NCBI GenBank assembly: GCA_015655335.1
Contig: JAATFF010000076.1
Coordinates: forward strand, 1 to 36,157
Length of the DNA: 36,157 nucleotides
From: Lysobacterales bacterium
GTDB lineage: Bacteria > Pseudomonadota > Gammaproteobacteria > Xanthomonadales > Rhodanobacteraceae
Direction of reading: 5' to 3'
The notes beneath the pieces are model-generated. The model ran no database searches and was not told the origin of the DNA. It saw only the letters and a program-made list of their open reading frames with translations. Both the position numbers and the translations under genes were made by a program. Shown here one piece after another: positions 18,795 to 23,876 of the stretch (the first letter of the stretch is position 1; every line of letters begins with the position of its first letter).

Positions 18795-18795
18795 G

Positions 18796-19087
18796 TAGGG
18801 ATGCTCTGGTTAATTCTGCGTAGGTGTCAGCGATCCTGTCTGTTCGCGGGCCGCAGGGCCGTCGGCGAAGGCAGCCTAGCTGGCTGTCGAGCCGGCGGCC
18901 CTGCGGCCCGCGAACAGACAGGATCGGCCCCAGCGTATTGAATTGGATAATGGGGTGATGTCCAGAAGGCTCGCAGGCTGCGCCGCACGGCTTGGCAAGA
19001 CGGCCAGTCTTCCCTGCGCCGCGCAACACAGCCTGCAAGCCTTCTGGACATCATGCCACCTACGCAGAATTAACCAGAGCATCCCTA
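18796..19087. mobile_element. MITE-like element separating kdpD from kdpE
   Basis: A 292-bp element ends in a perfect 31-bp inverted repeat (18796-18826 with 19057-19087). Both ends read TA then GGGATGCTCTGG inward, so TA may be a duplicated target. Inside are a second perfect 31-bp inverted repeat (18831-18861 with 18896-18926) and a 24-bp one with a single mismatch (18957-18980 with 19029-19052), giving a three-way-junction fold. The mismatch becomes a G-U pair in minus-strand RNA. There is no transposase; the short frames inside look random. The outer repeat covers the kdpD stop codon and the bases before the kdpE ATG. I know no named family for it. Confidence 0.8.
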
Positions 19088-21736
19088 GGGTGGCGTAGGC
19101 AGCGGGAGGCTGATGCGAATGGTGGTCCCAACGCCTTCGCCGGGCAAGGCTTCGACGCTACCGCCGTGCGCGCCGATCATGCCGCGGCAGATCGCCAGCC
19201 CCAGCCCCGTACCCTGCGGCGCGCGGTCGCCGCGTGCGACGGAATAGAACATGTCGAAGATGCGCGCGCGCTCCTCTTCGGGAATACCTGGGCCACGGTC
19301 GATCACGTCGATGAACAGGCGATCGCCCGCAACGCGTACCAGCACCCGCACCGCGTCGCCCGGCGGCGAGAAACGCGCGGCATTCTCCAGGATGTTGAAC
19401 AGCGCTTGTTCAATCAGCGCGGGATGCACGAACAGCAGCACGGTTTCGCTGGGCAGGATCGAGTCCACGCGCAATTCCGGAAATAGTTTTCGCAGACGCG
19501 TGATGGCGGAGGCGACAATCTCGGCCGCATCGGTCCAGTCGCGATTGAGCTTGAGCGTGCCGTGGCCAAGCCGCGTCATATCCAACAGGTTTTGGATGTA
19601 GCGGTCCAGGCGCTGCCCTTCGCCGAGAATCGCGCCGAGCAGTTCCTGGCGCTCGTCCACGGGCAACTGTTCCCAGTAACTGGATAGTGTGCCGGCTGCA
19701 CCGATCATGGATGCCAGCGGCGAACGTAAATCGTGCGACACGGAAGAGAGCAGGGCGTTGCGCAAGCGCTCGGTCTCGCCTTGCACACGCGCACCTTCCA
19801 GCTCTGACGCGAGGCGCGCTCGCTCGAGTGCTTGACCGATATCCTGCGCCATCGCCAACGCCAGACTGCGTCGTTCGATATCCGGTGCGTTCCCATTCTC
19901 GAAACGTAGCGCGACCACGCCCAGGCGATGATCGTCGCTGCCGAGCGGAAGCATCCAGCAGCGCGCTGCATTGAGCGTGTCGGTGAAACGCCCGGCGGGT
20001 TCGGTGTGTTGCTCGCACCATTCGGCGGCGGCGAGGTCCTGCGCCGTCATCGTCAGGGTTCGCGAGCTGTTCGCGGAAATCTGCAGGTGATGCTCTACAT
20101 CGCGTGCGAGTATCGCCGCTTCGCAATGCAGACCATGCGCAAGCGCTGCGGCACCCACGTCACGAACGCCGTCCGCATCGGTGCTGGCGGCCAGTCGCTG
20201 GCCAAGGGTCAGCAGCGCATGCGAATAGTCGTGCGCGGCGCGCAGGGATTCCACCTGACTGGCAAGGCGTGTCGCCAGTCGGCTGCAAATCAAGGCGACC
20301 AACAAAAACAACGTGACGGCGAGAACGTCGTCCGAGTTGGCGATCGCTAACGTATAACGCGGCGGCGCGAAGAAAAAGTTGTAGCCGATGAAACACAGGA
20401 TGGCTGTATACACCGCCACCGTCATGCGAGTGCGCACGGCCACGGTTATCACAGCAGTAAGGAAGATCAACGCGAGATTTGCTACCGACAAATAACGATC
20501 GGCAATGAAAGAAAGTCCAATCGCGATGGCCGTAGCAATCGTCGCGAAGATGTATTCGTCGCGCCGCCCGTGCACAGGCATAAGACGAAGCCGCCGACGT
20601 GCGCGCACACGCTCCGTAGGCGTAGCGATGATGGTTAGCTCAAGGTGCGCCCCGCGGCGTAGCAGTTGCTGCGTTAGCGAGCGGCCCACGATGCGTGCCA
20701 AAAGACGCTCGCGTGTACGGCCAAGAATGATCTGGCCGACGCCTTCGCGGTCGGCGTGCACCAGCAATTCATCCGCAATCGCATGGCCGCGCAGCACCAT
20801 CGCATCGCCACCGAGTCGGCGCGCCAGGCGCATCGCGGTATCGACGCGCTCGCGCCGTGCGTTATCCAAGGTGGCACCGGTGTCGACGAATACCACGCTC
20901 CACGGCGCACCGCGTCGTTCCGCAATGCGGCGTGCTATGCGTACCAGATACTCGCTTTGCGCATGACCGTCGATGGCCGCCATCACGCGTCGACGAACAG
21001 GCATCGCGCCGCCGCGTGCCAGCATGTGTTCGCGCAGGTCGCTGTCGACATGCCCGGCGACGGTATCCACCGCCAGTTCGCGCAGGGCGCCAAGATTGGT
21101 CGGCGAGAAAAACGATTCGAGTGCGGCGGCAGCGGTTTCCGGTACGTAAACCTTGCCTTGTCGCAAGCGGCCAATCAGTTCGCGCGGCGGCAGGTCGACC
21201 AGCACAATATCGCGCGCACGGTCGAGAAACGCATCAGGCACCGTTTCGCGCACAGTAACGCCAGTGATGCGTCGCACCTGGTCGTTGAGGCTTTCCAGAT
21301 GCTGCACGTTGAGTGCGGTGTAGACCTCGATGCCGGCGTCGAGTATTTCCGCGATGTCTTGCCAACGGCGTTCGTGGCGACTGCCCGGAACATTGCGATG
21401 CGCAAGTTCATCCACCAGCAGAATGGCGGGGCGTCGTGCCAGTGCGCCGTCGACATCGAACTCGGTGAACCCGCGCCCTTGATAACTCAACGTGAGTCGC
21501 GGCAGCACCTCAAGCCCTTCGAGCAGGGCTGCGGTTTCGGCGCGTTCGTGTGTTTCCACCAATCCCACCACCACATCCACACCCTGGCGTTTCAGTTCGC
21601 GCGCGGCGGAAAGCATGGCGTAGGTCTTGCCGACGCCGGGTGCGGCACCCAGAAAGATCTTCAGGCGACGATGGATGTCTTCCTGCACGACATCAAGCAG
21701 GGCATCGGCGCGTGCATCACGGGAAGCTTCGGTCAT
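19085..21736 (-). CDS. kdpD: Sensor histidine kinase KdpD
   Basis: An 883-residue membrane kinase sensing K+ need. The N-terminal KdpD domain has the Walker A motif GAAPGVGKT at 30-38 and LVDELAHRNVPG. A universal-stress-like domain (about 245-370) follows, then four membrane segments (about 395-490), a GAF-type region, and the kinase core with the phosphorylated His668 in SVSHDLRSPL, NILENAARFSPP, and DRGPGIPEEE/GTGLGLAICRG ATP-binding motifs. It is full length compared with E. coli (894). Its TAG stop is made by the TA and first G of the inserted element. Confidence 0.97.
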   Translation of the reverse strand: MTEASRDARADALLDVVQEDIHRRLKIFLGAAPGVGKTYAMLSAARELKRQGVDVVVGLVETHERAETAALLEGLEVLPRLTLSYQGRGFTEFDVDGALARRPAILLVDELAHRNVPGSRHERRWQDIAEILDAGIEVYTALNVQHLESLNDQVRRITGVTVRETVPDAFLDRARDIVLVDLPPRELIGRLRQGKVYVPETAAAALESFFSPTNLGALRELAVDTVAGHVDSDLREHMLARGGAMPVRRRVMAAIDGHAQSEYLVRIARRIAERRGAPWSVVFVDTGATLDNARRERVDTAMRLARRLGGDAMVLRGHAIADELLVHADREGVGQIILGRTRERLLARIVGRSLTQQLLRRGAHLELTIIATPTERVRARRRLRLMPVHGRRDEYIFATIATAIAIGLSFIADRYLSVANLALIFLTAVITVAVRTRMTVAVYTAILCFIGYNFFFAPPRYTLAIANSDDVLAVTLFLLVALICSRLATRLASQVESLRAAHDYSHALLTLGQRLAASTDADGVRDVGAAALAHGLHCEAAILARDVEHHLQISANSSRTLTMTAQDLAAAEWCEQHTEPAGRFTDTLNAARCWMLPLGSDDHRLGVVALRFENGNAPDIERRSLALAMAQDIGQALERARLASELEGARVQGETERLRNALLSSVSHDLRSPLASMIGAAGTLSSYWEQLPVDERQELLGAILGEGQRLDRYIQNLLDMTRLGHGTLKLNRDWTDAAEIVASAITRLRKLFPELRVDSILPSETVLLFVHPALIEQALFNILENAARFSPPGDAVRVLVRVAGDRLFIDVIDRGPGIPEEERARIFDMFYSVARGDRAPQGTGLGLAICRGMIGAHGGSVEALPGEGVGTTIRISLPLPTPP

Positions 21737-22400: not shown

Positions 22401-23876
22401 TCAGTAATGGATGATCGCGTCGAGCAGGGCGACGGCCTGATAGTCCTTCCTGCCGCCGTTGTAAGCATTCTCGTCATACGAATGCTCGTAACGTATCTCC
22501 GGCTGGATCTCCAGGTCCTGCGTCACCCAGTGCGTGATGCCGATGGTGTGACTGCTGTAGCGCGTGGCGTAACCGGTGCGCTGACCTTTTTCGTCGTTAT
22601 AGAACTCGTTGCGGATCGACAACATGTTGCTGCTGTCGAGCTCGAAGTTCAGATAATTCACGACGCCGAATTCGCCCGCTTCGCCAGCAAACGGCGAAGA
22701 TCCTGCCACGTCGGGCGTGCCACCGGGGCCATAGCCTGGAATGCCGCGGCCAAACATCTTGTAGGCTTCGGTCAGCATATGCACGCGTTTGCTGAAGCGA
22801 TGGCCCCAAGTTGTCACGTACATCTGTACGTTGTTGTAGTTGTAGTTATTGCCGTTCAAGTTATTGATACAGGGGTAAAGCATGTCGTTATTGTCAGCCG
22901 ACACCCAGCGTACGCAGGTTTGCAGCGACGGGCGTGCTGACGCATTCCATGGCGCCGTATCGTTGCTTGCGTTGATGCCAATCTGGAATGTCCACTGACT
23001 GCTGAGCTTGGTCGTGGTCATGATGCCGGTCTGGGTATACGGATCGACGGTGTACAGAATCGAGTGAGTCATCAGGTAGTTCTGCGGTGAGAACTGCGCC
23101 TCGATATCCGGCAACGACAGCCAGCGACCGACGCGGATCACCATGCCCTGGGCGACCCACGGAATGTAGAGGTCGCCGTAGAACAGCATGGGGTCATCGC
23201 CGTAAATCTTGCCATTGAGCGGCTGGTTCGGCGCGGGGTTATTGAGCAACTGATTGCTGAAGACACCCTTGGTGACCGTGTAGTGATAGTCATAACCATA
23301 GAGATTGGAGATGTCGAAACCCCAATCGATATGATCGGTCTGGACGGTATCTTCCACGCGCGTGATCGTCGTGATGAACTGATCCAACTCGACGCGATTC
23401 GGGCGCGTGTTGTAGGAAAGCGGGAAATTCGTGTGGTCCGACGTACTCAGGTTCGCCGCCGGTGTCACCCAGCCGTACACTTCGATGCGGTTGCGCTGCA
23501 TCCACCCGCCGAGCTTGGTGCAGCCCAGCGCCTTCTCCAGCGGATAAGTGGCGTTTTGGTCTGGCACGCCAATGGGTGCGGCGACACCACCGAGCTGCCA
23601 TTCCGCGCTGGGAAACGGCGGCGAATCCAGCGGTGCATCCATCGCACGGCGTGCCGGCGTGGGCGCATTCGGATCGGCGGGCTGCGCATCTTCGCGATAA
23701 GCGGCAGCGAAGCGCGATAAGAACCCCTTGCTGCAATCGCCGCTTTCAGCCGCGACCGGCGCTGCGGGCAAGCTGCCAGCGGGCATGGCGCTGACGTCGG
23801 TCGATTGCGCCAACACTTGCGACACCGGCGCGACGGTCAGCAGGATCGATGTGATAAGAGCCTTCTTGAAGTACAT
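22401..23876 (-). CDS. Outer-membrane beta-barrel porin (BBP2/OmpL-like) inside the kdp operon
   Basis: A 491-residue protein with a signal peptide (cleavage after QVLA, about residue 23), a Pro/Ala-rich N-terminal segment, and then a barrel of alternating strands beginning RNRIEVYGWVTPAANLS. It ends in an aromatic residue (IIHY), as barrel proteins do. It resembles the OmpL-like putative beta-barrel porin-2 family. It sits between kdpB and kdpC on the same strand, 66 bases after a 67-aa gene and 10 bases before kdpC, with an AGAGG ribosome binding site. The arrangement suggests it passes K+ (or a counter-ion) across the outer membrane under K+ limitation; that is inference. Confidence 0.8.
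   Translation of the reverse strand: MYFKKALITSILLTVAPVSQVLAQSTDVSAMPAGSLPAAPVAAESGDCSKGFLSRFAAAYREDAQPADPNAPTPARRAMDAPLDSPPFPSAEWQLGGVAAPIGVPDQNATYPLEKALGCTKLGGWMQRNRIEVYGWVTPAANLSTSDHTNFPLSYNTRPNRVELDQFITTITRVEDTVQTDHIDWGFDISNLYGYDYHYTVTKGVFSNQLLNNPAPNQPLNGKIYGDDPMLFYGDLYIPWVAQGMVIRVGRWLSLPDIEAQFSPQNYLMTHSILYTVDPYTQTGIMTTTKLSSQWTFQIGINASNDTAPWNASARPSLQTCVRWVSADNNDMLYPCINNLNGNNYNYNNVQMYVTTWGHRFSKRVHMLTEAYKMFGRGIPGYGPGGTPDVAGSSPFAGEAGEFGVVNYLNFELDSSNMLSIRNEFYNDEKGQRTGYATRYSSHTIGITHWVTQDLEIQPEIRYEHSYDENAYNGGRKDYQAVALLDAIIHY

Follow-up and report, generated by a model that had tools for sequence, protein, structure and literature searches.

The kdpD and kdpE genes of the window, the whole 36,157-nucleotide stretch of Lysobacterales DNA analyzed here, are separated by a private insertion of a mobile element, a conclusion that we regard as firm because the site is empty in all 15 congeners compared and copies of the element lie elsewhere. 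For the observations as a whole, the explanation that we consider likely is that this element is an IS5-related MITE with a cloverleaf structure, that it inserted privately at kdpDE, that its arms are maintained by template switching, and that it may influence kdpE. The strength of this combined explanation is held down because the genomes examined yielded no intact helper insertion sequence (IS) with the MITE ends. A non-autonomous, IS5-related MITE of Dyella and some related genera would thus have entered the space between kdpD and kdpE, and its insertion would date from after the split of this lineage from the sampled congeners. No earlier description of the element was found among the open-access papers listed, and we take it to represent a new family of IS5-related MITEs whose cloverleaf structure is uncommon. 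Another structured repeat is bcr1 of Bacillus cereus; the open-access literature returned nothing on bcr1 and nothing on kdpDE coupling.

Structure of the element at the kdpD-kdpE junction

The element and the genes that flank it have the following coordinates in the window.

18796..19087, no strand: whole element including both edge TA dinucleotides, 292 bp, placed from the sequence and from copies elsewhere; end A is the 18796 side, toward kdpE, and end B the 19087 side, toward kdpD
18796..18829, plus strand: P1 arm at end A (terminal inverted repeat), 31 perfect pairs and then a mismatch common to most family copies
19054..19087, minus strand: P1 arm at end B (terminal inverted repeat)
18831..18926, no strand: P2 hairpin (hairpin A), arms near-perfect here, the family's usual internal loop erased
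18928..18955, no strand: P3 small hairpin, long variant, CCCCA / TGGGG with an AT-rich loop; many copies have CCC-GAA-GGG instead
18956..19053, no strand: P4 hairpin (hairpin B), tip like the P2 tip in inverted orientation
19085..21736, minus strand: kdpD, sensor kinase, 883 amino acids
18096..18794, minus strand: kdpE, response regulator, 232 amino acids, its ATG one base beyond the kdpE-side TA
19085..19088, minus strand: CTAG, possible target-site copy on the kdpD side, its TAG being the kdpD stop
18795..18798, minus strand: CTAC, possible target-site copy on the kdpE side, equal to CTAG at 3 of 4 positions

An initial annotation made from the sequence alone had described three inverted repeats with TA at both edges and no transposase. 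The edge TA dinucleotides are there, and the termini (18796-18826 and 19057-19087) do form a perfect 31-bp inverted repeat, counting TA, that extends to 33 of 34 positions. The second repeat (18831-18866 and 18891-18926) likewise has 31 perfect pairs, with 35 of 36 positions paired overall. The third (18951-18991 and 19018-19058), described as 24 bp, exists but is imperfect, since 16 pairs are followed by one mismatch and 8 more pairs, giving 24 of 25 in the core and 83% over 41 positions. Between the TA pairs lie 288 bp, and no open reading frame of at least 100 amino acids falls wholly inside the element. Its DNA folding energy has a z score of -20.5 and its RNA fold on the kdp strand has a predicted energy of -242.9 kcal/mol (z = -25.3); none of 200 shuffles reached this stability for either molecule. 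No Rfam family reached its gathering score anywhere in the window, and over the element only subthreshold scores were obtained, for mir-326 (40.7 bits; gathering score, 66) and isrG (23.9 bits; gathering score, 100). Searches of phage, plasmid, and viral collections gave no match to the element.

Copies of the element in the genome and its relatives

The genome that carries the window is a Dyella-type draft (3.5 Mb, 169 contigs, 86% complete) that holds 7 further near-complete copies and 1 partial copy besides the one at kdpDE. Of 61 genomes searched, 21, this one included, had matches to the element (E <= 1e-6). The others were 14 of 15 congeners and, from other genera of the family, 6 of 21 genomes; none of 24 from other families of the order matched. 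The end sequence was found in D. dinghuensis, D. subtropica, D. flava, D. lipolytica, and D. nitratireducens, and the genus is taken to be Dyella. The element is therefore dispersed and multicopy, and it agrees with the MITE class proposed in the annotation in being short, transposase free, and bounded by terminal inverted repeats, with empty sites in relatives. Two other insertion sites that were compared across 16 genomes were each filled in 2 and empty in 14.

The counts given below were made on 96 fetched loci, which are near-full-coverage copies among the matches listed and not all copies of those genomes. They yielded 93 complete copies (3 had no recognizable ends), of which 89 were distinct after 4 duplicates were removed. 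Arm statistics used 86 of these (3 left out) and target-site counts 85 (4 left out); gene orientation at end A used 88, as 1 copy had no called gene on that side. The structural alignment, A1, comprised 74 copies; 10 members of a second subfamily and 5 copies that contained inserts or were poorly trimmed were left out (15 in all). In 91 of the 93 complete copies, 26 to 30 of the first 30 bases of the terminal inverted repeats were equal; the other two were shifted by indels or trimming.

The second MITE subfamily (loci L048, L049, L085, L110, L111, and L114-L118) occurs in four genomes (G002, G013, G003, and G010), and its P1 reads about TTCCACGTACCCG. In two of these genomes (G003 and G010) there are also pairs of the MITE end sequence 58 to 223 bp apart, which suggests shorter derivatives that have lost one or more hairpins. 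One contig binned as Eremiobacteraeota (L153; CAJCJD010000242.1) carries an element end and is perhaps a misbinned contig of a relative.

Relationship to IS5-family insertion sequences

A scan for the end sequence covered two congeners. In one of them (G003), some ends stood about 0.9 to 1.2 kb apart and flanked copies of an IS5-family insertion sequence. The longest copy (G003:C1:1855710-1856907) has a 304-amino-acid frame from stop to stop, of which 287 amino acids match DDE_Tnp_1 and NF033581, and the transposase fragment scored 309 bits against NF033581 (cut-off, 140). Both ends of this IS begin with GGGATGCTCTGA, as the MITE does, and are flanked by TA; one end goes on with TTTATTCC, similar in sequence to the second MITE subfamily. 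Unlike the MITE, the IS has a transposase frame, its two ends repeat each other imperfectly, and it showed no cloverleaf. Because its ends match those of this IS of a congener, the element is best read as an IS5-related MITE, and its movement probably depended on an IS5-family transposase that acted on the shared ends.

The best IS copy in that congener has an in-frame TAG within the family match and so may be dead, and an IS with similar ends in a second congener (G005, contig C11) is split over frames. In the genome carrying the window, whose assembly is 86% complete, there were 0 matches to the IS transposase at E <= 1e-60, and five of six weaker IS5-like matches were inspected, all five without the MITE ends. 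An intact helper IS with MITE ends was found in none of the genomes examined. More distant relatives of the IS in another genome (G039) are mostly open over the entire matched part and, judged by eye, have 4-bp target copies that fit YTAR or CTTA (CTTA/CTTA, CTAA/CTAA, and TTAG/TTAG). Of 89 copies, 87 had G/G or A/A as the first base pair of the MITE, and G/A was absent among the matches listed, which places this base within the inverted repeat. Since several IS copies carry a 4-bp target copy where the MITE has a base of its repeat, the insertion mode of the MITE may differ from that of the IS. TA stood on both sides of 27 of 85 copies, compared to 18 expected if the sides were independent; the window copy has CTAG on one side and CTAC on the other. 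The same contig of the first congener (G003:C1) has 24 places with nearly the same weak match to an IS5-family model, probably another abundant IS.

Orientation of copies toward neighboring genes

Neighboring genes were called with a custom program based on codon usage. At end A the adjacent gene pointed away from the element in 69 of 88 copies and faced it in 19, and at end B the adjacent gene pointed away in 44 of 89 and faced it in 45. Among copies lying between co-directional genes, 41 were read from B to A and 15 from A to B (P = 0.0007), or 39 and 15 when one member per shared site was left out (P = 0.0015); a further 28 lay between divergent and 4 between convergent genes. Called starts fell within -3 to 10 nt of the element at 21 of 69 A ends and 3 of 44 B ends (P = 0.004). 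The same bias was seen without the caller: an outward ATG occurred in the first 12 nt at 41 of 89 A ends and 13 of 89 B ends (P = 8e-6), or at 37 and 12 once the ATGs of neighboring element-like ends were subtracted, and the next four 12-nt intervals, with 12 to 16 outward ATGs at A and 13 to 23 at B, had no bias. The terminal repeats are nearly the same at the two ends, so the cause of the orientation bias must lie inside the element.

A promoter-like pair of hexamers in the family reads out of end A. In the window copy its positions are as follows.

18837..18842, minus strand: -35-like CAGACA (4 of 6 positions), reading out of end A toward kdpE; family motif
18813..18818, minus strand: -10-like CAGAAT (4 of 6 positions), 18 bp past the -35-like hexamer; family motif

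In a generic scan, 54 of 89 copies had an outward sigma-70-like pair with at least 8 of 12 positions matched at end A, and 5 of 89 had one at end B, compared to 6 to 7% of mononucleotide shuffles; at 9 of 12 the counts were 12 and 1. The commonest end-A pair, CAGACA-N18-CAGAAT, is the one present in the window copy, where a stricter scan that required 9 of 12 positions gave no hit. A putative weak outward promoter at end A is suggested by these matches as a lead, not as proof, since the motif is weak, the stricter scan of the window copy is empty, and the copies are related by descent. A location of this promoter in the AT-rich P3 loop was dropped, for short-variant copies lack the loop and the bias is present in short (15 to 2) and long (26 to 13) copies.

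The alternative that the orientation has its source in where the element prefers to insert or in common ancestry, with no expression signal at end A involved, has in our judgment a nearly even chance of being right. The copies do share ancestry, the gene caller was home-made, and the promoter-like motif is weak and missing from the stricter scan. In addition, the frame that began at a near-end ATG stayed open across the flank retrieved in 29 of 41 cases at end A and 8 of 13 at end B (37 of 54 pooled), no better than for ATGs slightly further out (29 of 44), so the near-end ATGs are not all true starts. What speaks against preference or descent is that the caller-free ATG bias is confined to the element ends and that, with near-equal terminal repeats, it must come from inside the element. 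If end A does act as a promoter, insertion of the element would be a ready means of rewiring operons, used repeatedly within one genus and here at a well-known two-component system.

Cloverleaf architecture and maintenance of the arms

Between the two large hairpins, the spacer forms a further, small hairpin that reads CCC-GAA-GGG in the short variant and CCCC-AT-rich-GGGG in the long variant, which makes the element a four-way junction, P1-P2-P3-P4. It would fold with P1 formed from the ends, P2 and P4 as hairpins, and P3 as the small one. The P2 tip and the P4 tip resemble each other when one of them is inverted, reading GACTGGCCGTC and GACGGCCAGTC. Position 15 of P1 illustrates how the arms vary together, with A, C, T, and G in 32, 31, 17, and 6 of 86 copies and 0 arm mismatches. 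Over the 74 aligned copies, 97.9% of 7,290 cells were paired, and two-sided changes had occurred at 73 of 99 pairs. Two-sided cells numbered 620, compared to 133 in shuffles, with 0 of 500 shuffles as high, and they dropped to 74 or 84 when the partner was slid by one base. Two-sided Watson-Crick cells outnumbered one-sided cells in each helix (269 versus 65 in P1, 218 versus 129 in P2, and 127 versus 77 in P4). Forty-seven two-sided pair types each occurred in 1 of the 74 copies from the matches listed, which speaks against copying from other sampled copies.

The 5' and 3' arms of P2 have 7 usual mismatches in the family. None of these is paired in 37 of 74 copies, one is paired in 25, and five are paired in one copy (L033). 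The window copy pairs 7 of 7, the highest of the 74 among the matches listed, and its 3' arm carries the bases of the 5' arm at 6 of these 7 positions. Its near-perfect second repeat is thus private to it among the 74 copies from the matches listed. Across the 74 copies, one-sided changes at the 7 usual mismatches were toward pairing in 53 of 99 cases, with one third expected. In one other copy (L089), the P2 core matched the reference at 0.94 when inverted and 0.60 when direct, the sole such case in the 74 among the matches listed. The homogenized tract of the window copy and the inverted core of L089 look like products of polymerase template switching; between inverted repeats, such switching is described as yielding arm homogenization and spacer inversion in the excerpt available of PMC8604942 (see also the part seen of PMC8794818). 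We judge template switching by DNA polymerase, with one arm serving as the template for the other, to be the better of several readings of how the arms are mainly kept complementary, on the grounds of the excess of two-sided changes, the homogenized tract, and the inverted core. Two observations were counted against it because arm copying would be expected to remove mismatches. The one at P1 position 30 is still there in most copies, and 62 of 74 copies keep the P2 internal loop whole or almost whole.

A second reading, which we hold to be somewhat unlikely, is that copies are born with perfect arms because movement itself copies one arm from the other, so that differences among copies reflect different source elements. 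The compared insertions are indeed private or nearly so, the nearest neighbor of a copy lies in another genome for 52 of 89 copies, and flank-matched copies gave no series showing change in place. Two flank-matched pairs, L031/L079 and L034/L056, had been considered as an orthologous series for correction in place and were given up because they look independent: the other 14 of 16 genomes are empty at these sites and the carriers are not sisters in the tree (in which some nodes have low support, 0.13 and 0.32), which makes separate insertion events the simpler account. A third pair, L039/L080, matches poorly on one side (22 of 60). Against birth with perfect arms, TA lies on both sides of only 27 of 85 copies, which suggests that there are old copies if TA is always duplicated, and their arm mismatches are still few. 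The homogenized tract and the inverted core, each found in 1 of the 74 copies among the matches listed, also weigh against it. The near-identical gene junctions of L031/L079 and L034/L056, in non-sister species, may be preferred targets near start codons.

Natural selection on a functional RNA or DNA fold, acting through ordinary compensatory mutation, is a reading that we find unlikely; the selected fold would be a mobile regulatory RNA or a folded substrate of transposition. The very strong covariation is compatible with it, as are the retention of the P1 position 30 mismatch in 79 of 89 copies and the orientation of copies relative to genes. Paired columns also diverge less than nearby unpaired ones in P2 (0.118 versus 0.162) and P4 (0.073 versus 0.136), and because of this some selection on P2 and P4 pairing is possible. 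In P1, however, the paired sites diverge nearly like unpaired columns (0.133 per side versus 0.147), yet their changes are mostly two sided. Wobble pairs had no clear overall strand preference (115 versus 95 cells; P = 0.19), with P2 (68 to 22) and P4 (17 to 43) leaning in opposite directions; selection on the RNA of one strand, as read from these pairs, was dropped for lack of an overall bias. Neither the insertion sites, since the three compared are not common to most congeners, nor the Rfam search, which gave no family at gathering score, favors a selected fold.

Template switching of the arms could be joined to the end-A motif in a more far-reaching and rather improbable reading, in which the element is a self-correcting mobile promoter whose template-switched arms keep the fold undecayed despite drift and whose one end carries an outward promoter. 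If this were true, an insertion flush with a start codon would free a gene from control by its operon, here kdpE from kdpD. With its many copies per genome, the family could serve as a natural system in bacteria for asking whether long hairpins stay perfect by arm copying or by selection, a question also raised for RNA genes in the portion seen of PMC8794818.

Similarity to other dispersed repeats

The Correia (NEMIS) elements, a Neisseria MITE, resemble the family in being short, transposase free, and dispersed and in having inverted ends with TA; they also have putative promoters and duplexes cut by RNase III (accessible parts of PMC2229807 and PMC10969869). As given in those parts, they are shorter, at 105 to 155 bp versus about 270 to 290 bp here. 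The MITE described here adds two long hairpins and a small one, and its ends match a Dyella IS5-family element. The CIR repeats of Caulobacter have two long inverted repeats that form two arms joined by a linker, and the text available of PMC2229807 contrasts them with repeats closed by end-to-end pairing; the present MITE combines both, with a 31-bp end-to-end helix around the two arms. ERIC elements of enterobacteria are MITE-like, with an orientation-dependent effect on neighboring transcripts (text available of PMC2229807); the effect described is at gene 3' ends and on upstream transcripts, whereas the MITE copies here favor the region before gene starts. Homogenization of arms and inversion of spacers by template switching have been described for yeast genes and RNA genes, involving short repeats in coding genes or RNA-gene stems in the passages seen of PMC8604942 and PMC8794818. 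Here, unlike in those cases, the repeats belong to a dispersed bacterial mobile element and the arms are about 30 to 40 bp.

Probable consequences for the kdpD-kdpE junction

The kdpD stop codon is a TAG at 19087-19085 on the minus strand, and, as had been annotated, its T and A come from the edge TA and its G from the element. The frame arithmetic of the annotation is also correct: with 290 bp taken out, kdpD and kdpE share one frame (CCC TAC ATG ACT). The suggestion drawn from it, that the element split a former KdpD-KdpE fusion protein, is not borne out by the relatives and is very improbable. The single open frame across the junction is the point in its favor; against it, kdpD and kdpE are separate in 15 of 15 congeners, with no fusion, and the kdpD TGA overlaps the kdpE ATG (ATGA) in 14 of them, the exception (G006) having TAA and a 9-nt gap. 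The comparison of the junction with relatives that had been proposed also found the site empty in all 15. The shared frame could have an ordinary origin, either because the target was CTAG and the kdpE-side copy (CTAC) mutated afterwards, or through a single-base change next to the element. A CTAG target would itself have supplied the kdpD stop, with no fusion at any time; with a CTAC target, or after the gain of an adjacent base, the in-frame match would be accidental. Nothing in the 15 congeners favors a fusion, and CTAG and CTAC origins are equally compatible with the data.

The pattern named in advance as evidence for a resident regulatory RNA, the same 292 bp at this junction in all relatives and nowhere else, is the reverse of the multicopy element and empty sites that we found, and a nonmobile RNA of the kdp operon can be dismissed as next to impossible: its predicted fold is extreme, but it is missing from kdpDE in 15 of 15 congeners and found at many other loci.

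The ATGA overlap in 14 of 15 congeners suggests that kdpE was formerly, in all probability, translated by coupling to kdpD. The start of kdpE now lies behind about 290 nt of very stable predicted structure, and an uncoupling of kinase and regulator by the element, as the annotation had proposed, is a plausible, putative effect. The insertion would have ended a tight, probably overlapping stop-start junction and would likely have weakened the translational coupling of kdpE. RNase III might cut the 31- to 36-bp duplex in the kdp transcript, as is reported for such duplexes of Correia elements in the part available of PMC10969869, and a weak new promoter could perhaps read out of end A into kdpE. 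Shine-Dalgarno matches at starts flush with element ends were of only 3 to 5 bases in 41 cases and were uninformative. The order on the minus strand is kdpA, kdpB, a porin-like gene, kdpC, kdpD, the element, and kdpE; the porin-like gene encodes a beta-barrel protein (Pfam BBP2), occupies positions 22401-23876 of the window on the minus strand between kdpB and kdpC, and overlaps kdpC.
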